Positions 1-6,842 of a DNA stretch of 64,000 nt are shown piece after piece. Source of the stretch: Bacteroidales bacterium (GTDB taxonomy: Bacteria; Bacteroidota; Bacteroidia; Bacteroidales; Marinilabiliaceae). Position 1 is the stretch's first letter. Every line of letters starts with the position of its first letter. The notes beneath the pieces were generated by a model. That model was not told the DNA's origin. It was given only the letters and a program-made list of their open reading frames with translations, and made no database searches. The stretch is taken from contig JAKSLH010000003.1 in assembly GCA_024401335.1 (NCBI GenBank), forward strand, positions 168,121 through 232,120, written 5' to 3'. A program made the position numbers and the translations under genes.

Positions 1-1623
1 AACCGCCTTATACAATACTCTCTTTATTTGCTTGACTAGCATAATGTCAGAAACTGCATTGTACAGAGTAAACGTGTAGTTATTAGTATCCTTATAGTTT
101 ATCTCGAAGGTAAATATCTTATTGTTGAATTTTAGCTCACCTTTTTTTATTTTATCATCGCCCGAAACCTCGTAGTCACAAACTGCAGTCAACCAAATGT
201 TTATATCAACCTTAGAATTGGAAACCAACGCAACTAGATTAGGGTTGGTCTTTACAAAATCAACGGAAGACTTTTGTGATACAAGATTGCCACTGGCTCT
301 AAGTTTCCATTTCCTTTCTTTTATGTACTCTTCAAAATTAGGTATCTTGCGTTCTCTTGCTTGATTTTCGACTTTTGTCAGGAAGGGAGACAATTCGTTT
401 TTGTAGCAATTATTGACAACCATGTCATCCCAAGGAGATGAGAATGGACAAAATATGCAACCTACACGAGGTTTGCCCACTCGATATGCCTCATTGATAG
501 GAAGATTATATTTAAGCAAATACAAGAATATCTCAGTCGTATTCCACCTTAGGATAGGCCTAGCATTGGTGACAAAAGAGTGTTTTACTCCCTTGCCTAT
601 TCGTTCATAAACAGAACGCTTTGCACTTTCTTCTGATCGTACACCCTCAAACGCTAAAACTTTTGCTTGCTTGTTCGTCTCAGGTTCCTTTAGCATTCTG
701 TACAATGGTGCTGTTTTCATTACCGAACAACACCAACGATGTTTATCACTAGGCGAACCTATTTTATCCCAATAATTCAAAACAGTCTCGTGATTTTTAG
801 CGAGGCTAAATTTGAGTGTAGGGAACAAATTGTGATAGTATTTCTGAACATCTTTGTATAGATTGAGTGACGATGGAAGTTCATAACCTGTATCAGAATA
901 TATAACTTGAAACGCATCTGGGGGCAGCGCACGAGTACATAGGTCAAGGACAACCTGACTGTCTTTGCCTCCTGAAAATGATGCTAAGAAATAATCAACT
1001 TTAGTGGTTTGAAGCACTTTCTTGCCTTGCTTCTCGGCTTCTATAAGAGGCATAATGTCGAAGCTGTCGCAGTCTTCTTTTACTATAGCCATCTTCTGCT
1101 TGGCTTTCTTCTCCTGTTTGGCTACAAGAGAATCAAAATCAACAGCATTCGCTGCATGTTTTTTGCTCATCTTGTTGGCCTTGCTATATGTATCGAAAGT
1201 ATCGCGAATGAACTCAATTGCCTCACTTTCGCAAAGGAACATAAACTCCTTTGTTTTCTCCAACATGGCATGAACATCAATAGGGGTTAGCGTCAGTTTC
1301 TCTTTGCCTGGCTGAAACACAATAGTTGCCTTATCGTAAATGTTTGCACCTTTGGCTTCAAATGCAAAATCACCACGATAGTAGTATTCTTTATTGATGG
1401 CCCACATCAGTGGTTCTTGGCATTCAGGGTATTGCCAACCGAGAGTATTAAGTCCTAAAAGATTTAGTTCTTCAGAAAATACAGGACGAGGAGAGATACT
1501 AAGTGTATCTTTCGTAACCAGTGAAGATAATAAAACTCCTCCTGTCTCCTTATCCCATGATATCTTGTGCATTAGTAGTCTATGCGAGTCTTTTTTGTTT
1601 CGGCGCCAGACTTCCAATGGCAT
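1..1623 (-). CDS. PAPS-reductase-family (DndC-like) protein, 3' end outside the window
   Basis: An open frame runs from an ATG at 1623 through 541 codons to the left edge without a stop, and an in-frame TAA lies just upstream of that ATG. The P-loop-like SGGKDS motif of ATP-pyrophosphatase/PAPS-reductase enzymes is at about residues 217-222, followed by the family's RWCC..K element (decoded from about 740-765) and a GCxxCP cysteine pair at residues 389 and 392. The N-terminal 200 residues begin MPLEVWRRNKK and have a charged AKQEKKAKQK stretch before the catalytic domain. Such enzymes activate a substrate with ATP, often for sulfur transfer; relatives outside sulfur assimilation include DndC of DNA phosphorothioation. 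No sulfate-assimilation genes are near, while defence-type genes follow, so a role in nucleic-acid modification or defence is my inference. Unusually, it is preceded by a long structured leader. Confidence 0.8.
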   Translation of the reverse strand, partial: MPLEVWRRNKKDSHRLLMHKISWDKETGGVLLSSLVTKDTLSISPRPVFSEELNLLGLNTLGWQYPECQEPLMWAINKEYYYRGDFAFEAKGANIYDKATIVFQPGKEKLTLTPIDVHAMLEKTKEFMFLCESEAIEFIRDTFDTYSKANKMSKKHAANAVDFDSLVAKQEKKAKQKMAIVKEDCDSFDIMPLIEAEKQGKKVLQTTKVDYFLASFSGGKDSQVVLDLCTRALPPDAFQVIYSDTGYELPSSLNLYKDVQKYYHNLFPTLKFSLAKNHETVLNYWDKIGSPSDKHRWCCSVMKTAPLYRMLKEPETNKQAKVLAFEGVRSEESAKRSVYERIGKGVKHSFVTNARPILRWNTTEIFLYLLKYNLPINEAYRVGKPRVGCIFCPFSSPWDDMVVNNCYKNELSPFLTKVENQARERKIPNFEEYIKERKWKLRASGNLVSQKSSVDFVKTNPNLVALVSNSKVDINIWLTAVCDYEVSGDDKIKKGELKFNNKIFTFEINYKDTNNYTFTLYNAVSDIMLVKQIKRVLYKAV

Positions 1624-1655
1624 ATTCAGTTATATACAGGACGCATAAAAACGAC

Positions 1656-1938
1656 AAACGTGGAAGTCCTACAAAACTCATTGTTATTGGAGGCCTACCA
1701 CAGCCCACGGAACCTAATGAGATAATCGGACAACCACGCTTTGAGAATATGCAATACTTCAAAAAGTGTGCTACAGGAATAATCCTATGGCACACCCCGA
1801 AGTGTGTACATAAACACCTCGTGGCGCCTACTTTCTGCATTGTTTCGGTTCCGTTCTGAAAAGTGGTAGTTTCCAACAAACCAAACAAGCGAATGTAAAC
1901 GCTTATGTTATTTATACGTACGTGCACAAAAAGAGCAC
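1656..1938 (-). ncRNA. Structured RNA / leader upstream of the PAPS-reductase-like gene
   Basis: The stretch between the putative promoter and the ATG at 1623 folds on the minus strand into nested stems that I could pair by eye. They are: 1741-1728 with 1669-1656 (twelve pairs with a symmetric 2x2 internal loop and one G-U pair); inside it 1721-1716 with 1682-1677; hairpin 1821-1814 with 1805-1798 (8 pairs); hairpin 1795-1766 (GTGTGC/GCACAC plus AGGA/TCCT); and 1840-1836 with 1753-1749, which would enclose the last two. The G-U pair favours the minus strand as the RNA. It may be a cis-regulatory leader or an independent RNA acting with the protein. It matches no family I can name. Confidence 0.5.
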
Positions 1939-2138: not shown

Positions 2139-2735
2139 TTATTTACTCTTCAGTTCTTCTATTGCTTTATACACATTGGTGTATGACTGATTTTCTTGCA
2201 TGCCTATCTCCTTGGCACGAGTGATGGCATCATTTTGTTTCTCATCACCGGTCATCTGTATGACCCAATCTGGCTTGGAAAGAAAACGTTCATGTTTTTC
2301 ATAGTTACGAATATAGCTAGACAACTCCCTTTCTGCCTCTTTGCTTGTCGTGAAAAATTTAGCAGTCTTTCTGAAATGCAAAAGGAACCAATATTCTATC
2401 GAAGGCAAACTGTCACATATAAGGACATCAGGCTTGTTGCCATATTTACGCTTGAGTTCTTCAAGTTTTTTCTTCTCAGCAGCATCCCAATTCGTGACAT
2501 CAGCATCAAATATGCAGATGGCACGTCCACCTTCGTCGAGCACTTGCCTAATACGCTGTTCGATATAGTATATGTTTTCATTGCCGAAAAAACGTGGACG
2601 TATTTTCAGGCGATATCCAAACAAATTCTTGAGATGCTCGAAATAGTACTGTTCGGTTATTCCCGCTCCAATGATAGTCGGGATTGCCTCAAGGGTGTTT
2701 TTCGTGTTGGTATTACGTACATTCTTCCTTGCCAT
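2139..2735 (-). CDS. rloB: RloB-like TOPRIM-fold protein (AbiLii-type)
   Basis: This is a 198-aa protein with the layout of the RloB family. GAGITE at residues 23-28 supplies the conserved TOPRIM-type glutamate, FDAD at 76-79 the acidic DxD pair, and SLPSIEYWFLLHF at 109-121 the family's hallmark aromatic stretch. RloB is thought to be a nuclease-like effector working with the RloA ATPase; the pair is related to the phage abortive-infection system AbiL. It starts 8 bp after the rloA stop and ends just before a strong terminator, so the two genes form a closed operon. The identification rests on motifs and on the partner gene; the target is unknown. Confidence 0.85.
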   Translation of the reverse strand: MARKNVRNTNTKNTLEAIPTIIGAGITEQYYFEHLKNLFGYRLKIRPRFFGNENIYYIEQRIRQVLDEGGRAICIFDADVTNWDAAEKKKLEELKRKYGNKPDVLICDSLPSIEYWFLLHFRKTAKFFTTSKEAERELSSYIRNYEKHERFLSKPDWVIQMTGDEKQNDAITRAKEIGMQENQSYTNVYKAIEELKSK

Positions 2736-2743
2736 AACTCTTG

Positions 2744-3961
2744 CTATTTGATATTAGGCAATGCTCCGAAACGTCCATTGCGATATGCCTTTTGAATAGA
2801 CGCCAACTTGTTGAGACCACGGAACTCAACCAGAGAGAAAAGAGAAGAATGGCCCGTCTCGTCTTTCTCTGTAAACCAGACACTATCCTTACGGATGAGA
2901 TCATCGGTTGTGTTAAGCAATGGATCGTAATGAGATGTGATGAGCATCTGCGAATGATTGTCAGTCTCACGAAGAAACTTTTCGATTATGAACTCAACCA
3001 ACGACGGGTGTAGCGACGCCTCTATCTCATCAATCATAAGGAATGCCTGCTGCTTAATGGCAGTATAAACCGCGGCCTCTATGCCAAATGTCCTCTTAGT
3101 ACCATCTGATTGATCACTCTCCTGCATCGTGTACTTTTCCTCACCACGCGCATTACGCACAGTATGCTCAAAGAGTGTTTCCCAAGTGTCAATGGACTTT
3201 GTACTGGCATACTCTGACACCTTATTGCTTCGCAATCCTGTTATATTAAAGTCTGCGCGATGGATAAAATCCAAAAGATATGTCTTGGCTGCATCATCCT
3301 TGCGCATCATATTGTTTGCATAGTCAAACATGTGAGTAGCAGGCGATATGACTGGAAGGTATGAATTGCGCATCCATTCGCGAGCCTCATCAATTTGAGG
3401 TATTGAAATATTGACCTGATTGCGAGCTGCAAAAAAAGACATATTTGACAAGCACTTGAGGGAAATTTCCTCTTGTGCTGCTGCGCTTATCTTGACAACC
3501 TTAGTGTTGAATGACAGAACAGACTGGCTATTTTCTAGTTTGCGCTCAAACAACAAAGTAGGTTGAACGCTATTATATATGAACAGTCTTTCTTTAAGAA
3601 CTGTCTTGGAAGTCAACTTGAGCTGGTACCAATATCTGACTTCACCAACAAAAAACTTTAGACTAAAATCTGTTGGTTCGTTAGGAGTGTTAGCATCAAG
3701 GCGGAAAGGAATCGCACCTGTTGGCTCATCTATGTCATCGGCCTTGTTGAACCAAAAGCTGTTGAGGAATTCAAACGCACGTAACAAGTTGGACTTGCCA
3801 GAAGCATTAGCGCCATATACCATTGCGAAACGCAAAAGGCGAGTCTTGCCAATTGTTACGACTTGATAAGCTTCGTTTATAGTGTCCTTGGTGGCTTCAA
3901 AACTGAATGTTATTTCATCACGGAAGGAAAGATAATTCCTTACCTTCAATTCCTGTATCAT
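2744..3961 (-). CDS. rloA: RloA-like AAA/ABC-type ATPase (AbiLi-type)
   Basis: This is a 405-aa ATPase of the OLD/SMC-like AAA class that begins MIQELKVRNYLSFRDE, a start typical of such proteins. The Walker A motif GANASGKS is at residues 50-57, a signature-like SDGTKR at about 290 and Walker B LMIDEIE at about 315, followed by a LHP histidine and a C-terminal switch segment (TSHYDPLL). It is the first gene of a two-gene operon with rloB, 8 bp apart. RloA/RloB pairs occur at restriction loci and resemble the AbiL exclusion system, in which the ATPase probably senses infection and the TOPRIM partner acts. That functional model is inference. Confidence 0.85.
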   Translation of the reverse strand: MIQELKVRNYLSFRDEITFSFEATKDTINEAYQVVTIGKTRLLRFAMVYGANASGKSNLLRAFEFLNSFWFNKADDIDEPTGAIPFRLDANTPNEPTDFSLKFFVGEVRYWYQLKLTSKTVLKERLFIYNSVQPTLLFERKLENSQSVLSFNTKVVKISAAAQEEISLKCLSNMSFFAARNQVNISIPQIDEAREWMRNSYLPVISPATHMFDYANNMMRKDDAAKTYLLDFIHRADFNITGLRSNKVSEYASTKSIDTWETLFEHTVRNARGEEKYTMQESDQSDGTKRTFGIEAAVYTAIKQQAFLMIDEIEASLHPSLVEFIIEKFLRETDNHSQMLITSHYDPLLNTTDDLIRKDSVWFTEKDETGHSSLFSLVEFRGLNKLASIQKAYRNGRFGALPNIK

Positions 3962-4345: not shown

Positions 4346-5113
4346 TCAATGATTTAAATCTATGTATTTACCATGGTCGAAGCTGGTGTGCTCGTTATGT
4401 AATACATACCCCAACTGATTGGACACGCATAAGGTCTTACCAATGACTTTGTCCACGTTGTAATGAGAGTGGCCGAAGATCCAGAAGTCGATATCTGACT
4501 CCTTGATATAATCTTTCAATTCTATCGTAAAAGCACCATTGGCAAGACTTCCCTCAAACTTCGGACATTGCATCAGGAAAGAGGGTACATGATGTGTGAC
4601 GACAATCTTGTTCTCGGCAGTAGTCTCTTGAACAGACTTCTTGATGAACTCCAGACATCGTCTATGTTCACGATTGAAATCGGCGAAGGTGAGTAGTTCG
4701 CCATTGCACAGAATCCTGCGGAAGTCGCTTATAACTTGTTCTGTGTAGTAGGCTTCACGAAGAGGTATCTCTGACCACAGAGTAGAAATAATGAAGTCTG
4801 TGTCCTCAATTCGTACTACTGCATTATAGTAGCTATGCACATTGTGACGTATCTCAAGACAGTAGCCATCCTTGAGTGTTGCAATGTCGAAATATTTGTA
4901 GAACTCATGGTTGCCCATGCAGCAGATGACTTGCTTGTAATTATCAGATGCCCAATCCCAGAAAGGGTGCTTGGTGTAATTCTCATCGCCTAAGTAACCG
5001 ATGTCACCAGCCAAAACCAGCACATCGCCTGTTACCTTGAGAGGATTTCCCTTGAGGTACCTCCAGTTGTCGTCAAACTCAAGATGGAGGTCGGATGCGT
5101 ACTGGATTTTCAT
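4346..5113 (-). CDS. Calcineurin-like metallophosphoesterase
   Basis: This 255-aa protein carries the full set of two-metal phosphoesterase motifs: SDLHLEF at residues 7-13, a GD at about 37 (LAGDIGYLGD), GNHEF at about 67-71, THH at about 171 and GHSH at about 215. It has no signal peptide, so it is cytoplasmic. Family members cleave phosphodiesters or phosphomonoesters in nucleotides, RNA or proteins; the substrate here cannot be read from sequence. Its ATG overlaps the stop of the nucleotidyltransferase gene by 4 bp (ATGA), which implies translational coupling. It may reverse or process the product of that neighbour (inference). Confidence 0.85.
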   Translation of the reverse strand: MKIQYASDLHLEFDDNWRYLKGNPLKVTGDVLVLAGDIGYLGDENYTKHPFWDWASDNYKQVICCMGNHEFYKYFDIATLKDGYCLEIRHNVHSYYNAVVRIEDTDFIISTLWSEIPLREAYYTEQVISDFRRILCNGELLTFADFNREHRRCLEFIKKSVQETTAENKIVVTHHVPSFLMQCPKFEGSLANGAFTIELKDYIKESDIDFWIFGHSHYNVDKVIGKTLCVSNQLGYVLHNEHTSFDHGKYIDLNH

Positions 5114-5892
5114 GAGCGTGGAATAAACAGGTCGTTGAGTTGATCTAACAATGCCTCAATAAAGTCTTCGCTTTGTTCGAGTGATTTTGCTAAAGGAGAA
5201 GCAAGTTCATCCCAGTCATTTCTAACTGCTGTAACGAAATCTTTAATGCATCCAACAATGGATGTAGGTGCTGATATGATTTCATCTGGAGATAACAGGA
5301 CTACATTCTTCAGTACGTCTGATCGGTGCTTCTTGATATCCTTTGTGTTGACATGTTTGCCATTATCCTTGTCTTGCAACAAGTTAAGGTATGCACGTGC
5401 TTTCAAAGCGATAAGTGCAACTGAGTCAGCGTGACGAATGCCATCCGTCAGTCGACTATGCTCAATGGTGAAATGATAATAGTCATCGTCCAAAATGATT
5501 GCACTTAGACTTGAAACGTCTTCTCCCACAGGTAGGGGCTCAATGACTAATCCCTTTGGTACGCCTAACACATTAGGGTGTCGTGATAGCAATTCTATCA
5601 TTTCCGGATAGCCAGGTTTGCCATCCACAAATCGGTAGAGTTCGTATTTGGCTGTTCCTTCTTTTGAATGGCACTTCTCTGGACGATAACCGGCTTCTCG
5701 AATGAACTGCCAGAATCGTTCACCATATTCAGGACTCATCTTTTCGACGATGACAATCATGTCTATGTCATGTGTTGCACGTGGCTTTACCGCTGTACCA
5801 GTCATTGTAATATCACAAGCTGTTCCACCAATGATTACATAGTTATCCGAGTATGCCTCGAATGCTTCCTTGAATTTATCTAATCCTTCCAT
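5110..5892 (-). CDS. Nucleotidyltransferase-fold protein, AbiEii-like
   Basis: This 260-aa protein has a minimal nucleotidyltransferase core. IIGGTACDI at residues 20-28 gives the GG motif and DID at 42-44 the metal-binding aspartates; an acidic MIELLSR strand further on may give the third. This is the arrangement of MNT and AbiEii-type enzymes, which transfer nucleotides to proteins or RNA and are the toxins of type IV AbiE systems. The gene overlaps the upstream winged-helix gene by 13 bp and the downstream phosphoesterase gene by 4 bp. By analogy with AbiE the winged-helix protein would be the antitoxin and repressor. The third gene is not part of classical AbiE. Confidence 0.75.
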   Translation of the reverse strand: MEGLDKFKEAFEAYSDNYVIIGGTACDITMTGTAVKPRATHDIDMIVIVEKMSPEYGERFWQFIREAGYRPEKCHSKEGTAKYELYRFVDGKPGYPEMIELLSRHPNVLGVPKGLVIEPLPVGEDVSSLSAIILDDDYYHFTIEHSRLTDGIRHADSVALIALKARAYLNLLQDKDNGKHVNTKDIKKHRSDVLKNVVLLSPDEIISAPTSIVGCIKDFVTAVRNDWDELASPLAKSLEQSEDFIEALLDQLNDLFIPRS

Positions 5893-6842
5893 TCTATTTC
5901 ATTTATTACTCTTAATACTTCACCCTCCACTCTGGCATCAGTGTCTTCTCGTAAGCTGATTACGAGAGATAATTTATCAACCCATTCTGAGGCTGTTTGA
6001 GGAGAAGACACCACAGGGTATTTCCATACCTCAATCATAACTCTTCCGTCAAACTCGTTCATGTTGAGTAGAGCCTTATTATCAATCAGCCTTTGTAACT
6101 CTTTCTTGTTCATCATAATCATCCTGTTGTTGTCAGGGTTGAGCCAACTATAATGGGCTAGGGCATTGATACTGCAGTTGGTATAATCTACATCCGAGTT
6201 TAACGCATCGCAGTAGAGTCGTTTCTCGACTGGATCGACCAGATATTCCTGAGCTTTGTCCCATAGTTCACGTCCTTTGGCAAGGAAATGAATAACCTTA
6301 CTTTTGGCTCCATTGGAAATCTTCTCGCATAAGTTTAGGTCTTCCAGACATGTGAGTCCTAATGTTATGCTTTCGTACGAATATGGCAGTTTGTCGGTCA
6401 TCTCTCTTGCGGATAACCCTTCAAGACTTTCAACCTGAAGATGATATAATAATGTGTATTGGGCCACGAGTGATAATCGCTTAGCAGGACGAGTCTTTCG
6501 CATTCTCTCGTTGGCTACTAATGTGGGTAAGAATACGAATTTGTCACCCATAACAAAATAAACCCCTTTGTCTATGAGTCTTTGCCGTTCGTAGGAAGGA
6601 CCTGATGAAAGTATAAAAACTACTGGCAATCCGAATATCGTCTGCATTCGTTCCGCTGTGATAGCACATTCGCGAGGTGTTGGGTTATTCTTCTTCGGCT
6701 CTAAGAAAAGCAGAGGCATTCCATGGAATTCACCATCATAAAAAGAGAACGTCAGCGATTCTCCAATATTAATGCCCTTCAACTGCGATTTTGTACGCTG
6801 TTGAAGAGATATGCTTCTTCCTAATATGTTCAGTTCTTTCAT
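5880..6842 (-). CDS. MarR-like winged-helix protein, AbiEi-like partner
   Basis: This is a 320-aa protein. The first 110 residues form an alpha/beta domain ending in a YERQRLIDKGVYFVMGDKFVFLP segment that I associate with a group of MarR-annotated regulators. The middle, about residues 125-215, reads as a winged helix (GLSAREMTDKLPYSYESI, then a KSKVIHFL wing). The C-terminal 100 residues are of unknown type. It is the first gene of a three-gene operon with overlapping ends. The combination of a winged-helix protein with an AbiEii-like nucleotidyltransferase suggests antitoxin and autoregulator, but I cannot prove family membership. The -7 region just upstream (6893-6886, CATATTTG) is one base off the consensus. 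Confidence 0.7.
   Translation of the reverse strand: MKELNILGRSISLQQRTKSQLKGINIGESLTFSFYDGEFHGMPLLFLEPKKNNPTPRECAITAERMQTIFGLPVVFILSSGPSYERQRLIDKGVYFVMGDKFVFLPTLVANERMRKTRPAKRLSLVAQYTLLYHLQVESLEGLSAREMTDKLPYSYESITLGLTCLEDLNLCEKISNGAKSKVIHFLAKGRELWDKAQEYLVDPVEKRLYCDALNSDVDYTNCSINALAHYSWLNPDNNRMIMMNKKELQRLIDNKALLNMNEFDGRVMIEVWKYPVVSSPQTASEWVDKLSLVISLREDTDARVEGEVLRVINEIEWKD

Follow-up and report, generated by a model that had tools for sequence, protein, structure and literature searches.

Riboswitches and attenuators, for example the pseudoknotted preQ1, the fluoride and the T-box leaders, are as a kind the described RNAs closest to the one reported here. The leaders of operons regulated by UpxY, LoaP and RfaH, together with the EAR and put RNAs, provide comparators of the antitermination type, and RNAs of type III toxin-antitoxin systems (ToxI-like) are defined by tandem direct repeats. 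Promoters of Bacteroidetes have the -7 consensus TAnnTTTG.

In the main text of a 2026 survey of BREX systems (PMC12839542), the terms 'ncRNA' and 'non-coding RNA' have 0 occurrences. Fremin and Bhatt (2021; PMC8040213) numbered 3161 structured-RNA candidates of the human microbiome, which are intergenic and in some cases come from Bacteroidetes; 15 of these candidates lie upstream of HTH_XRE genes, and those considered here are 38-132 bp long. Their candidates may include fragments of the RNA family reported here. In the open-licence literature searched (titles and beginnings of abstracts), neither this RNA nor a leader RNA of BREX was found to be described.

Here we analyze a window of Bacteroidales DNA, that is, the whole stretch of 64,000 nucleotides under study, in which an RNA precedes the first gene of a type-4 BREX operon. 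This RNA is a member of a family of structured RNAs that is absent from Rfam 15 and has been seen so far in the order of the window. It is virtually certain that the family is real, and its possible function is weighed below.

Genomic context and structure of the leader

The gene downstream of the RNA, originally predicted to be of a defence type, can now be specified as brxP of a type-4 BREX system. In the contig sequence adjoining the window (L003), the operon is complete on one strand in the order brxP, a gene for a 141-aa protein, brxC/pglY, pglZ and brxL, with PADLOC E-values of 5.6e-276 for the whole BrxP protein (3e-177 for its in-window part), 0 for brxC/pglY, 3.9e-201 for pglZ and 9.1e-198 for brxL. 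The 141-aa protein between brxP and brxC (L003:8629-9054, minus strand) is without a PADLOC match.

The original prediction placed the RNA in a 315-nt space between a -7 box and an ATG at 1623. The box does exist upstream of the RNA, whereas the other boundary has to be moved. BrxP homologues align only from residue 17 or 18 of the ATG-1623 reading, their own first ATG corresponds to ATG 1572, and positions 1624-1605 form a hairpin (H2) that is conserved in the RNA family. It seems that ATG 1572, rather than ATG 1623, is probably the start of brxP; given where the homologues begin to align and where their ATG falls, the leader would extend to 1573, about 50 nt longer than was assumed.

That this leader is highly structured was borne out. 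The fold of the 315-nt version has an energy of -105.9 kcal/mol against -78.1 ± 4.8 for shuffled sequences (z -5.80, with 0 of 100 shuffles as low), and a 388-nt version gives z -5.54. The predicted stems were located on the minus strand: 1741-1728 (AAGCGTGGTTGTCC) pairs with 1669-1656 (GGACTTCCACGTTT), with a TT/TT internal loop and one G-U pair, and this helix contains an inner stem formed by CTCATT at 1721-1716 and AATGAG at 1682-1677. The complement strand is also of low energy (z -5.0), as palindromic sequence gives; in relatives, the family model scores the RNA strand at 261.7 bits vs 14.7 for the complement in L065, and at 215.5 vs 29.4 in L062. The stems are not all mutually compatible, contrary to what had been proposed, because ACGT 1661-1658 has two possible partners and can pair with either GCGT 1902-1899 or GCGT 1739-1736. 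The features of the locus are given below, where a rank is that of the cognate pairing of the window copy (0 being the best).

1..1572, minus strand: brxP, first gene of the type-4 BREX operon, running past the window edge (contig C23, L003)
1952-1945, minus strand: -7 promoter box TATCTTTG, by the sequence pattern TAnnTTTG
1573..1938, minus strand: whole leader, predicted to be transcribed, with a putative 5' end near 1938 placed from the -7 box and the probable brxP ATG 1572 as its 3' limit
1647..1904, minus strand: structured RNA core (covariance model match at 1648-1904)
1899..1918, minus strand: P0 5' strand (CGTATAAATAACATAAGCGT), whose duplex with the P0 3' strand has -17.0 kcal/mol in the window
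1642..1661, minus strand: P0 3' strand (ACGTTTGTCGTTTTTATGCG), including the U-rich stretch and pairing with 1899..1918
1895..1902, minus strand: P1 5' strand GCGTTTAC (rank 3 of 99)
1824..1831, minus strand: P1 3' strand GTAGGCGC, pairing with 1895..1902
1879..1888, minus strand: P2 5' strand (rank 0 of 99)
1840..1850, minus strand: P2 3' strand, with bases 1850-1847 common to P2 and PK2
1858..1874, minus strand: P3 hairpin GGAAA/TTTTC with loop CTACCAC
1863..1869, minus strand: PK1 5' strand CTACCAC, identical to the P3 loop (rank 0, n=96)
1695..1701, minus strand: PK1 3' strand GTGGTAG, followed by a conserved GCCT (1694-1691)
1847..1854, minus strand: PK2 5' strand ACGGAACC (rank 1 of 99)
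1707..1714, minus strand: PK2 3' strand GGTTCCGT, pairing with 1847..1854
1728..1739, minus strand: P6 5' strand GCGTGGTTGTCC (rank 2 of 99)
1658..1669, minus strand: P6 3' strand GGACTTCCACGT, the terminator-like 3' arm, pairing with 1728..1739
1716..1721, minus strand: P7 5' strand CTCATT, in the originally predicted pairing, which is displaced from the family alignment columns
1677..1682, minus strand: P7 3' strand AATGAG, pairing with 1716..1721
1647..1658, minus strand: U-rich stretch TTTGTCGTTTTT, 3' of P6
1605..1624, minus strand: hairpin H2 (GCC/GGC stem), with loop GGAAGTC (1615-1609) complementary to GACTTCC (1668-1662) of the P6 3' strand
1766..1795, minus strand: strong hairpin in the variable middle region

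The window copy can form the pairings P1, P2, PK1, PK2, P6 and P0, as well as that of the H2 loop with the P6 arm (-11.3 kcal/mol, rank 6 of 95). P5 and P7 are unpaired here at the family columns (ranks 96 and 98): P5 is not formed and P7 is displaced. P6 is a long-range helix in the window, with 58 nt enclosed, and is unlike a textbook terminator hairpin. A terminator scan limited to loops of 3-8, which puts P6 outside its reach, listed a minus-strand stem at 1906-1885 and one plus-strand stem but not P6; a sigma-70 scan found nothing in 1500-2100.

Two other kinds of RNA-containing system were considered. With regard to a retron, no reverse transcriptase was found among the six window proteins scanned (Pfam, PADLOC and NCBIfam) or the five operon proteins (PADLOC), in agreement with the original prediction, which saw none. 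A type III toxin-antitoxin RNA does not fit, tandem direct repeats being absent from the RNA core. The only direct repeat in 1500-2150 has two copies (1927-1949 and 1956-1978; 23 nt, 83% alike, spacing 29 nt) and lies outside the core, around the promoter region.

Directly upstream of the BREX operon, a second defence module was observed (window 2139-3961, minus strand), consisting of an RloB-like protein (PF13707) and an AAA_21 ATPase that matches AbiLii/AbiLi models. This ATPase (2744-3961) also has weak matches to PtuA, a retron-linked effector (E 2.1e-7 and 4.3e-4). At E<=0.001, neither Pfam nor PADLOC nor NCBIfam gave a match for two overlapping ORFs in window 5110-6842 (5110-5892 and 5880-6842, minus strand); by eye the first looks nucleotidyltransferase-like, and the two presumably resemble an AbiE-type pair.

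Identification and distribution of the RNA family

An alignment of five BrxP proteins served as the query for relatives in genome contigs, and the best 80 of 271 were kept. All but one of these 80 brxP loci were classed, L049 being without upstream sequence. Covariance model R1 was built from 13 copies of the RNA, the window copy among them, and R2 from 26 copies with the window copy left out, on an alignment made with R1, which had included it. R2 matched the window at 1648-1904 of the minus strand with 48.7 bits and an E-value of 2.6e-7 (E-values are rough because of a short calibration), and at E<=10 neither strand of the 64-kb window held any further match.

The family was reached through brxP homologues because it is too divergent for blastn. 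A nucleotide search with the leader returned only itself from 71 genomes of the same taxonomic family and no match from plasmids or phages. When viral contigs were searched with a single BrxP protein, no relative was obtained, although brxP contigs exist there according to a later RNA search; one long degenerate DNA pattern also gave no viral match. For the three homologues examined first, folding of the upstream region gave z-scores of -1.8, -1.6 and +1.7, and there was no sign of conservation until the larger set. No known riboswitch motif had come to light in the original prediction, and Rfam 15 likewise has 0 matches in the window (0 up to E 5 in 1500-2100) and none of its families overlapped the RNA when 12 loci were scanned at gathering scores and 20 loci at E<=0.5.

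R1 matches occur in at least 70 of 393 genomes of the window's order, taken as Bacteroidales on the basis of the named relatives in the BrxP scan (a lower bound under strict filters), and a class-wide draw of 295 genomes yielded four with the RNA, all from this same order. Sixteen genomes picked for having matches contain 1-12 copies each and 98 in total. Duplicates (L140, L160, L170, L180 and L186) were dropped from the counts, and L092 was removed in place of L180 for the 99-copy alignment and in the duplex and covariation tests. The window's genome has two copies, namely the window copy and C12:239863-240117, the latter before a small HTH-like gene. From IMG/VR, 12 contigs were picked by a 17-mer, and five of them contain the RNA, two before brxP. 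These five viral-classed contigs are L213, L218, L217, L212 and L209.

According to R1, the RNA lies directly upstream of brxP in 16 of the 79 loci in addition to the window; these 16 include the near-identical pairs L025/L042 and L028/L031 and a degenerate copy in L041 (40.3 bits). Thus, the stems that were first drawn on a single sequence recur upstream of homologues, and they covary as described below. An XRE-like gene, identified by sequence pattern rather than profile, is found immediately upstream of brxP in 27 of the 79 loci; both RNA and XRE-like gene occur together in 0 and neither in 36. L037 was counted as XRE, its partial RNA match being 4.8 kb from brxP. The 63 loci at which the RNA was not found include L071 and L081, which have less than 270 nt of upstream DNA. 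In L066/L055 and L043/L044, brxP is preceded at a distance of about 60-350 nt by other structured leaders, which have long nested stems and no R1 match (folding z -4.9 for L066 and -6.4 for L043); they are possibly other leader classes at the same position.

Sequence covariation and pseudoknotted architecture

In the RNA, P1-P2-P3 make up a 5' domain and P6-P7 a 3' domain, and the two are tied together by PK1, PK2 and P5. In the 99-copy alignment, the 54-pair structure with pseudoknots is paired in 87.7% of cells (77.2 ± 0.3% when shuffled), both sides have changed in 46 of the 54 pairs (35.7 ± 2.0 when shuffled), and the covariation score is 0.402, against 0.219 for shuffled and 0.07-0.11 for slid partners.

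Comparison of cognate with permuted strands by duplex energy gave z-scores, all of which ignore common descent, of -34.3 for PK2 (n=99), -19.2 for PK1 (n=96), -15.3 for P2, -14.1 for P7, -12.2 for P5 (n=98), -11.8 for P6 and -10.4 for P1; the alignment was fitted to P1, P2, P3, P6 and P7, so the figures for these lean towards the structure, while PK1, PK2, P5, P0 and H2 are outside the aligning model, yet their discovery, by eye or from a single fold (that of L065 for P0), drew on part of the same sequences that the tests used. Three copies were left out for PK1 and one for P5 since the segment was too short. The two strands of PK2, with 97 and 92 distinct sequences among 99, pair at -10.3 kcal/mol as cognates and at -3.8 kcal/mol when permuted. 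PK2 (helix 5 of the structure) pairs in only 58.4% of alignment cells, which is put down to poorly aligned columns, given that its direct-strand z is the strongest; P5 and P7 pair in 92-99% of cells over the 99 copies.

Two further pairings involve the 3' end of the RNA. P0 joins a segment through AGGCGT with ACGC and the U-rich stretch (z -10.6, n=99). Because it takes up the GCGT of P1 together with the ACGC/T of P6, it excludes most of P1 and part of P6. H2 is located about 30 nt downstream of the U-rich stretch. Its stem covaries (z -13.2) in a selected set of 92 of the 99 copies, those with a usable site; the other seven have no site of at least -6 kcal/mol or a site too near the RNA end. 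Moreover, its loop matches the P6 3' arm (z -11.4, n=95, 0 of 10,000 permutations). L147, L154, L165 and L166, which have no recognised P6 arm, were left out of this test and added in H2 tests with a wider pattern.

A coding explanation for the conservation was rejected because of the compensatory pair changes and because ORFs spanning the RNA are no general feature. L024, L036 and L052 have in common a similar ORF (72-86 codons) at this place, and no ORF of at least 45 codons ends within 400 nt of brxP in L025, L042, L053, L062 or L065.

Genes downstream of the RNA

The sequence TAnnTTTG is present within 150 nt upstream of the RNA in 81 of the 98 other copies, compared to 139 of 2066 control windows of 150 nt, and in 94 of 98 a P6-type end has 6 or more T among the next 12 nt (a raw count over copies alone). 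Among copies not preceding brxP, 69 of 85 have an ORF of at least 100 codons whose start is 5-220 nt downstream (median 63 nt, IQR 48-75), vs 20 of 82 on the opposite side. In a separate listing of first genes, L175 and L095 have no ORF.

Pfam matches of the 83 first genes scanned belong to 47 families, 25 of which are listed. Among the matches listed are BspA-type leucine-rich repeats (5), DNA N6/N4 methylases (2, type III by PADLOC), SNF2-related proteins (2, HKD+Snf2 by PADLOC), NusG (2), DUF2971 (2), an outer-membrane beta-barrel family (2), AbiGi (1) and a protein kinase (1). Six small HTH-like genes were also recognised by eye after the RNA (L109, L118, L173, L174, L177 and L199). These downstream genes have no obvious common pathway and no metabolic theme. 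In genome G453, two copies (L183 and L184) are directly before NusG-type genes of UpxY appearance, which suggests a link to capsule loci. L192 and L189 place the RNA before ORF pairs whose second gene, as we presume, resembles a His-Xaa-Ser type peptide maturation gene.

A putative switch and its alternatives

We regard the RNA as a cis-acting regulatory leader on the grounds of where it lies, the promoter box before it, a 3' end that resembles a terminator, helices that exclude one another, and its exchange for XRE-like genes at brxP; on this sequence evidence such a role appears quite likely. By sequence, the predicted 5' leader has a conserved structured domain with competing helices, as riboswitches do, and the originally suggested leader sensor fits and is supported. 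We consider it reasonably probable that the RNA is a cis-acting bistable attenuator, i.e., an orphan riboswitch-like leader with two states placed before accessory operons, here type-4 BREX.

Such a leader might work as follows. The P6 3' arm has just one ACGC/T, for which the GCGT copies of P1 and P6 would compete. If P6 wins, the terminator would form and the operon would be off; if the pseudoknotted core favours P0, the U-rich stretch would be hidden and the polymerase would read through. Once P0 has formed, H2 may take the freed rest of the P6 arm, by which it would either hold that state or act on translation, and the balance would be tipped by some ligand or protein signal. The transcript, the signal and the direction of the switch are what we infer here, and the particular P0/P6/H2 switch as drawn is put forward tentatively, with a chance that we place somewhat under even. 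As H2 is downstream of the U-rich stretch, it cannot act before the termination decision, which counts against this switch.

Four other explanations were weighed. The RNA may come from a separate small RNA gene whose own terminator lies at P6. It would then act in trans, with H2-like loops as one potential target, and the gene downstream would be expressed through read-through or processing. A -7 box of its own in 81 of 98 copies, the U-rich stretch after P6 and several copies per genome would suit this explanation. However, the narrow distance to the downstream gene (69 of 85, IQR 48-75 nt) does not, and H2 fits the P6 arm of its own copy better than the arms of other copies within one genome (z -6.7, n=64, 12 genomes), which points to cis. 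We regard an RNA acting in trans as unlikely.

It is also improbable that the RNA serves processive antitermination in the manner of put, EAR or the targets of LoaP, where the polymerase is modified for long accessory operons by a folded RNA, either by itself or together with a NusG-type protein. The leader position before long operons such as BREX and the two copies preceding NusG-type genes (L183 and L184) are consistent with it, but the requirement of a dedicated NusG paralogue is ruled out by the single NusG match in six of 10 RNA-bearing genomes (the other four have 2-5, and 10 genomes without an RNA match have 0-2). In addition, some first genes downstream of the RNA are small, and the competition between P0, P6 and H2 suggests a local switch.

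The original prediction also considered an RNA partner of the protein or a substrate of its ATP-pyrophosphatase domain. A component of BREX itself, be it a guide, a scaffold or a substrate of the PAPS reductase, would be in keeping with the place of the RNA just before brxP in the window and 16 of 79 loci, and with two IMG/VR contigs that have the RNA and brxP together. Both proposals are disfavoured by its presence before many unrelated genes and by the 63 of 79 brxP loci at which it was not found, from which it follows that BREX does not need it; such a component is very improbable. Finally, a dispersed mobile repeat (MITE-like or a transposon-end RNA) without function for the downstream gene is hardly credible: although the RNA is multi-copy, sporadic and of low energy on both strands, with five same-genome pairs at 0.74-0.83 identity, copies within a genome are on average hardly closer than those of different genomes (0.479 over 182 pairs vs 0.467 over 4669 pairs), pairs change in a compensatory manner, and position and orientation relative to genes are fixed.

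The reading as a bistable cis-acting leader may extend to the whole family. With about even chances, in our estimate, this pseudoknotted leader class would be an interchangeable on/off module for Bacteroidales accessory loci (BREX, type III restriction-modification, SNF2 defence, capsule-type regulators and surface proteins), based on a three-way competition for one strand that includes a hairpin after the U-rich stretch and answering to one shared cue. If one RNA module serves phage defence, restriction, NusG-type regulators and surface proteins, a common cue would be expected, which could be tested with reporters. In our view, how Bacteroidales silence and switch on costly accessory loci is largely open. 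The present RNA suggests that some hosts control BREX through an RNA where others have an XRE-like gene, and adds a large pseudoknotted RNA with covariation support per helix to the orphan riboswitch-like RNAs.

Comparison with known systems

Compared with described type-4 BREX systems (BrxP, BrxC/PglY, PglZ and BrxL), the operon downstream of the RNA has all four genes, whereas the RNA would be an optional leader rather than a part of BREX. The leaders regulated by UpxY, LoaP and RfaH and the EAR and put RNAs resemble it as leader RNAs before accessory operons, and two of its copies precede NusG-type genes; unlike them, it has NusG in only 2 of 83 first genes, and a single NusG match is found in six of 10 RNA-bearing genomes. 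Riboswitches and attenuators differ from it in that this RNA family is without an Rfam 15 match and its downstream genes are without a metabolic theme. To our knowledge, the described riboswitch or attenuator classes have no hairpin that follows the U-rich stretch and shows complementarity to the terminator-like arm. What the RNA has in common with these classes is a conserved folded domain in the 5' leader, competing helices, a U-rich stretch after a helix and a hairpin near the start codon.
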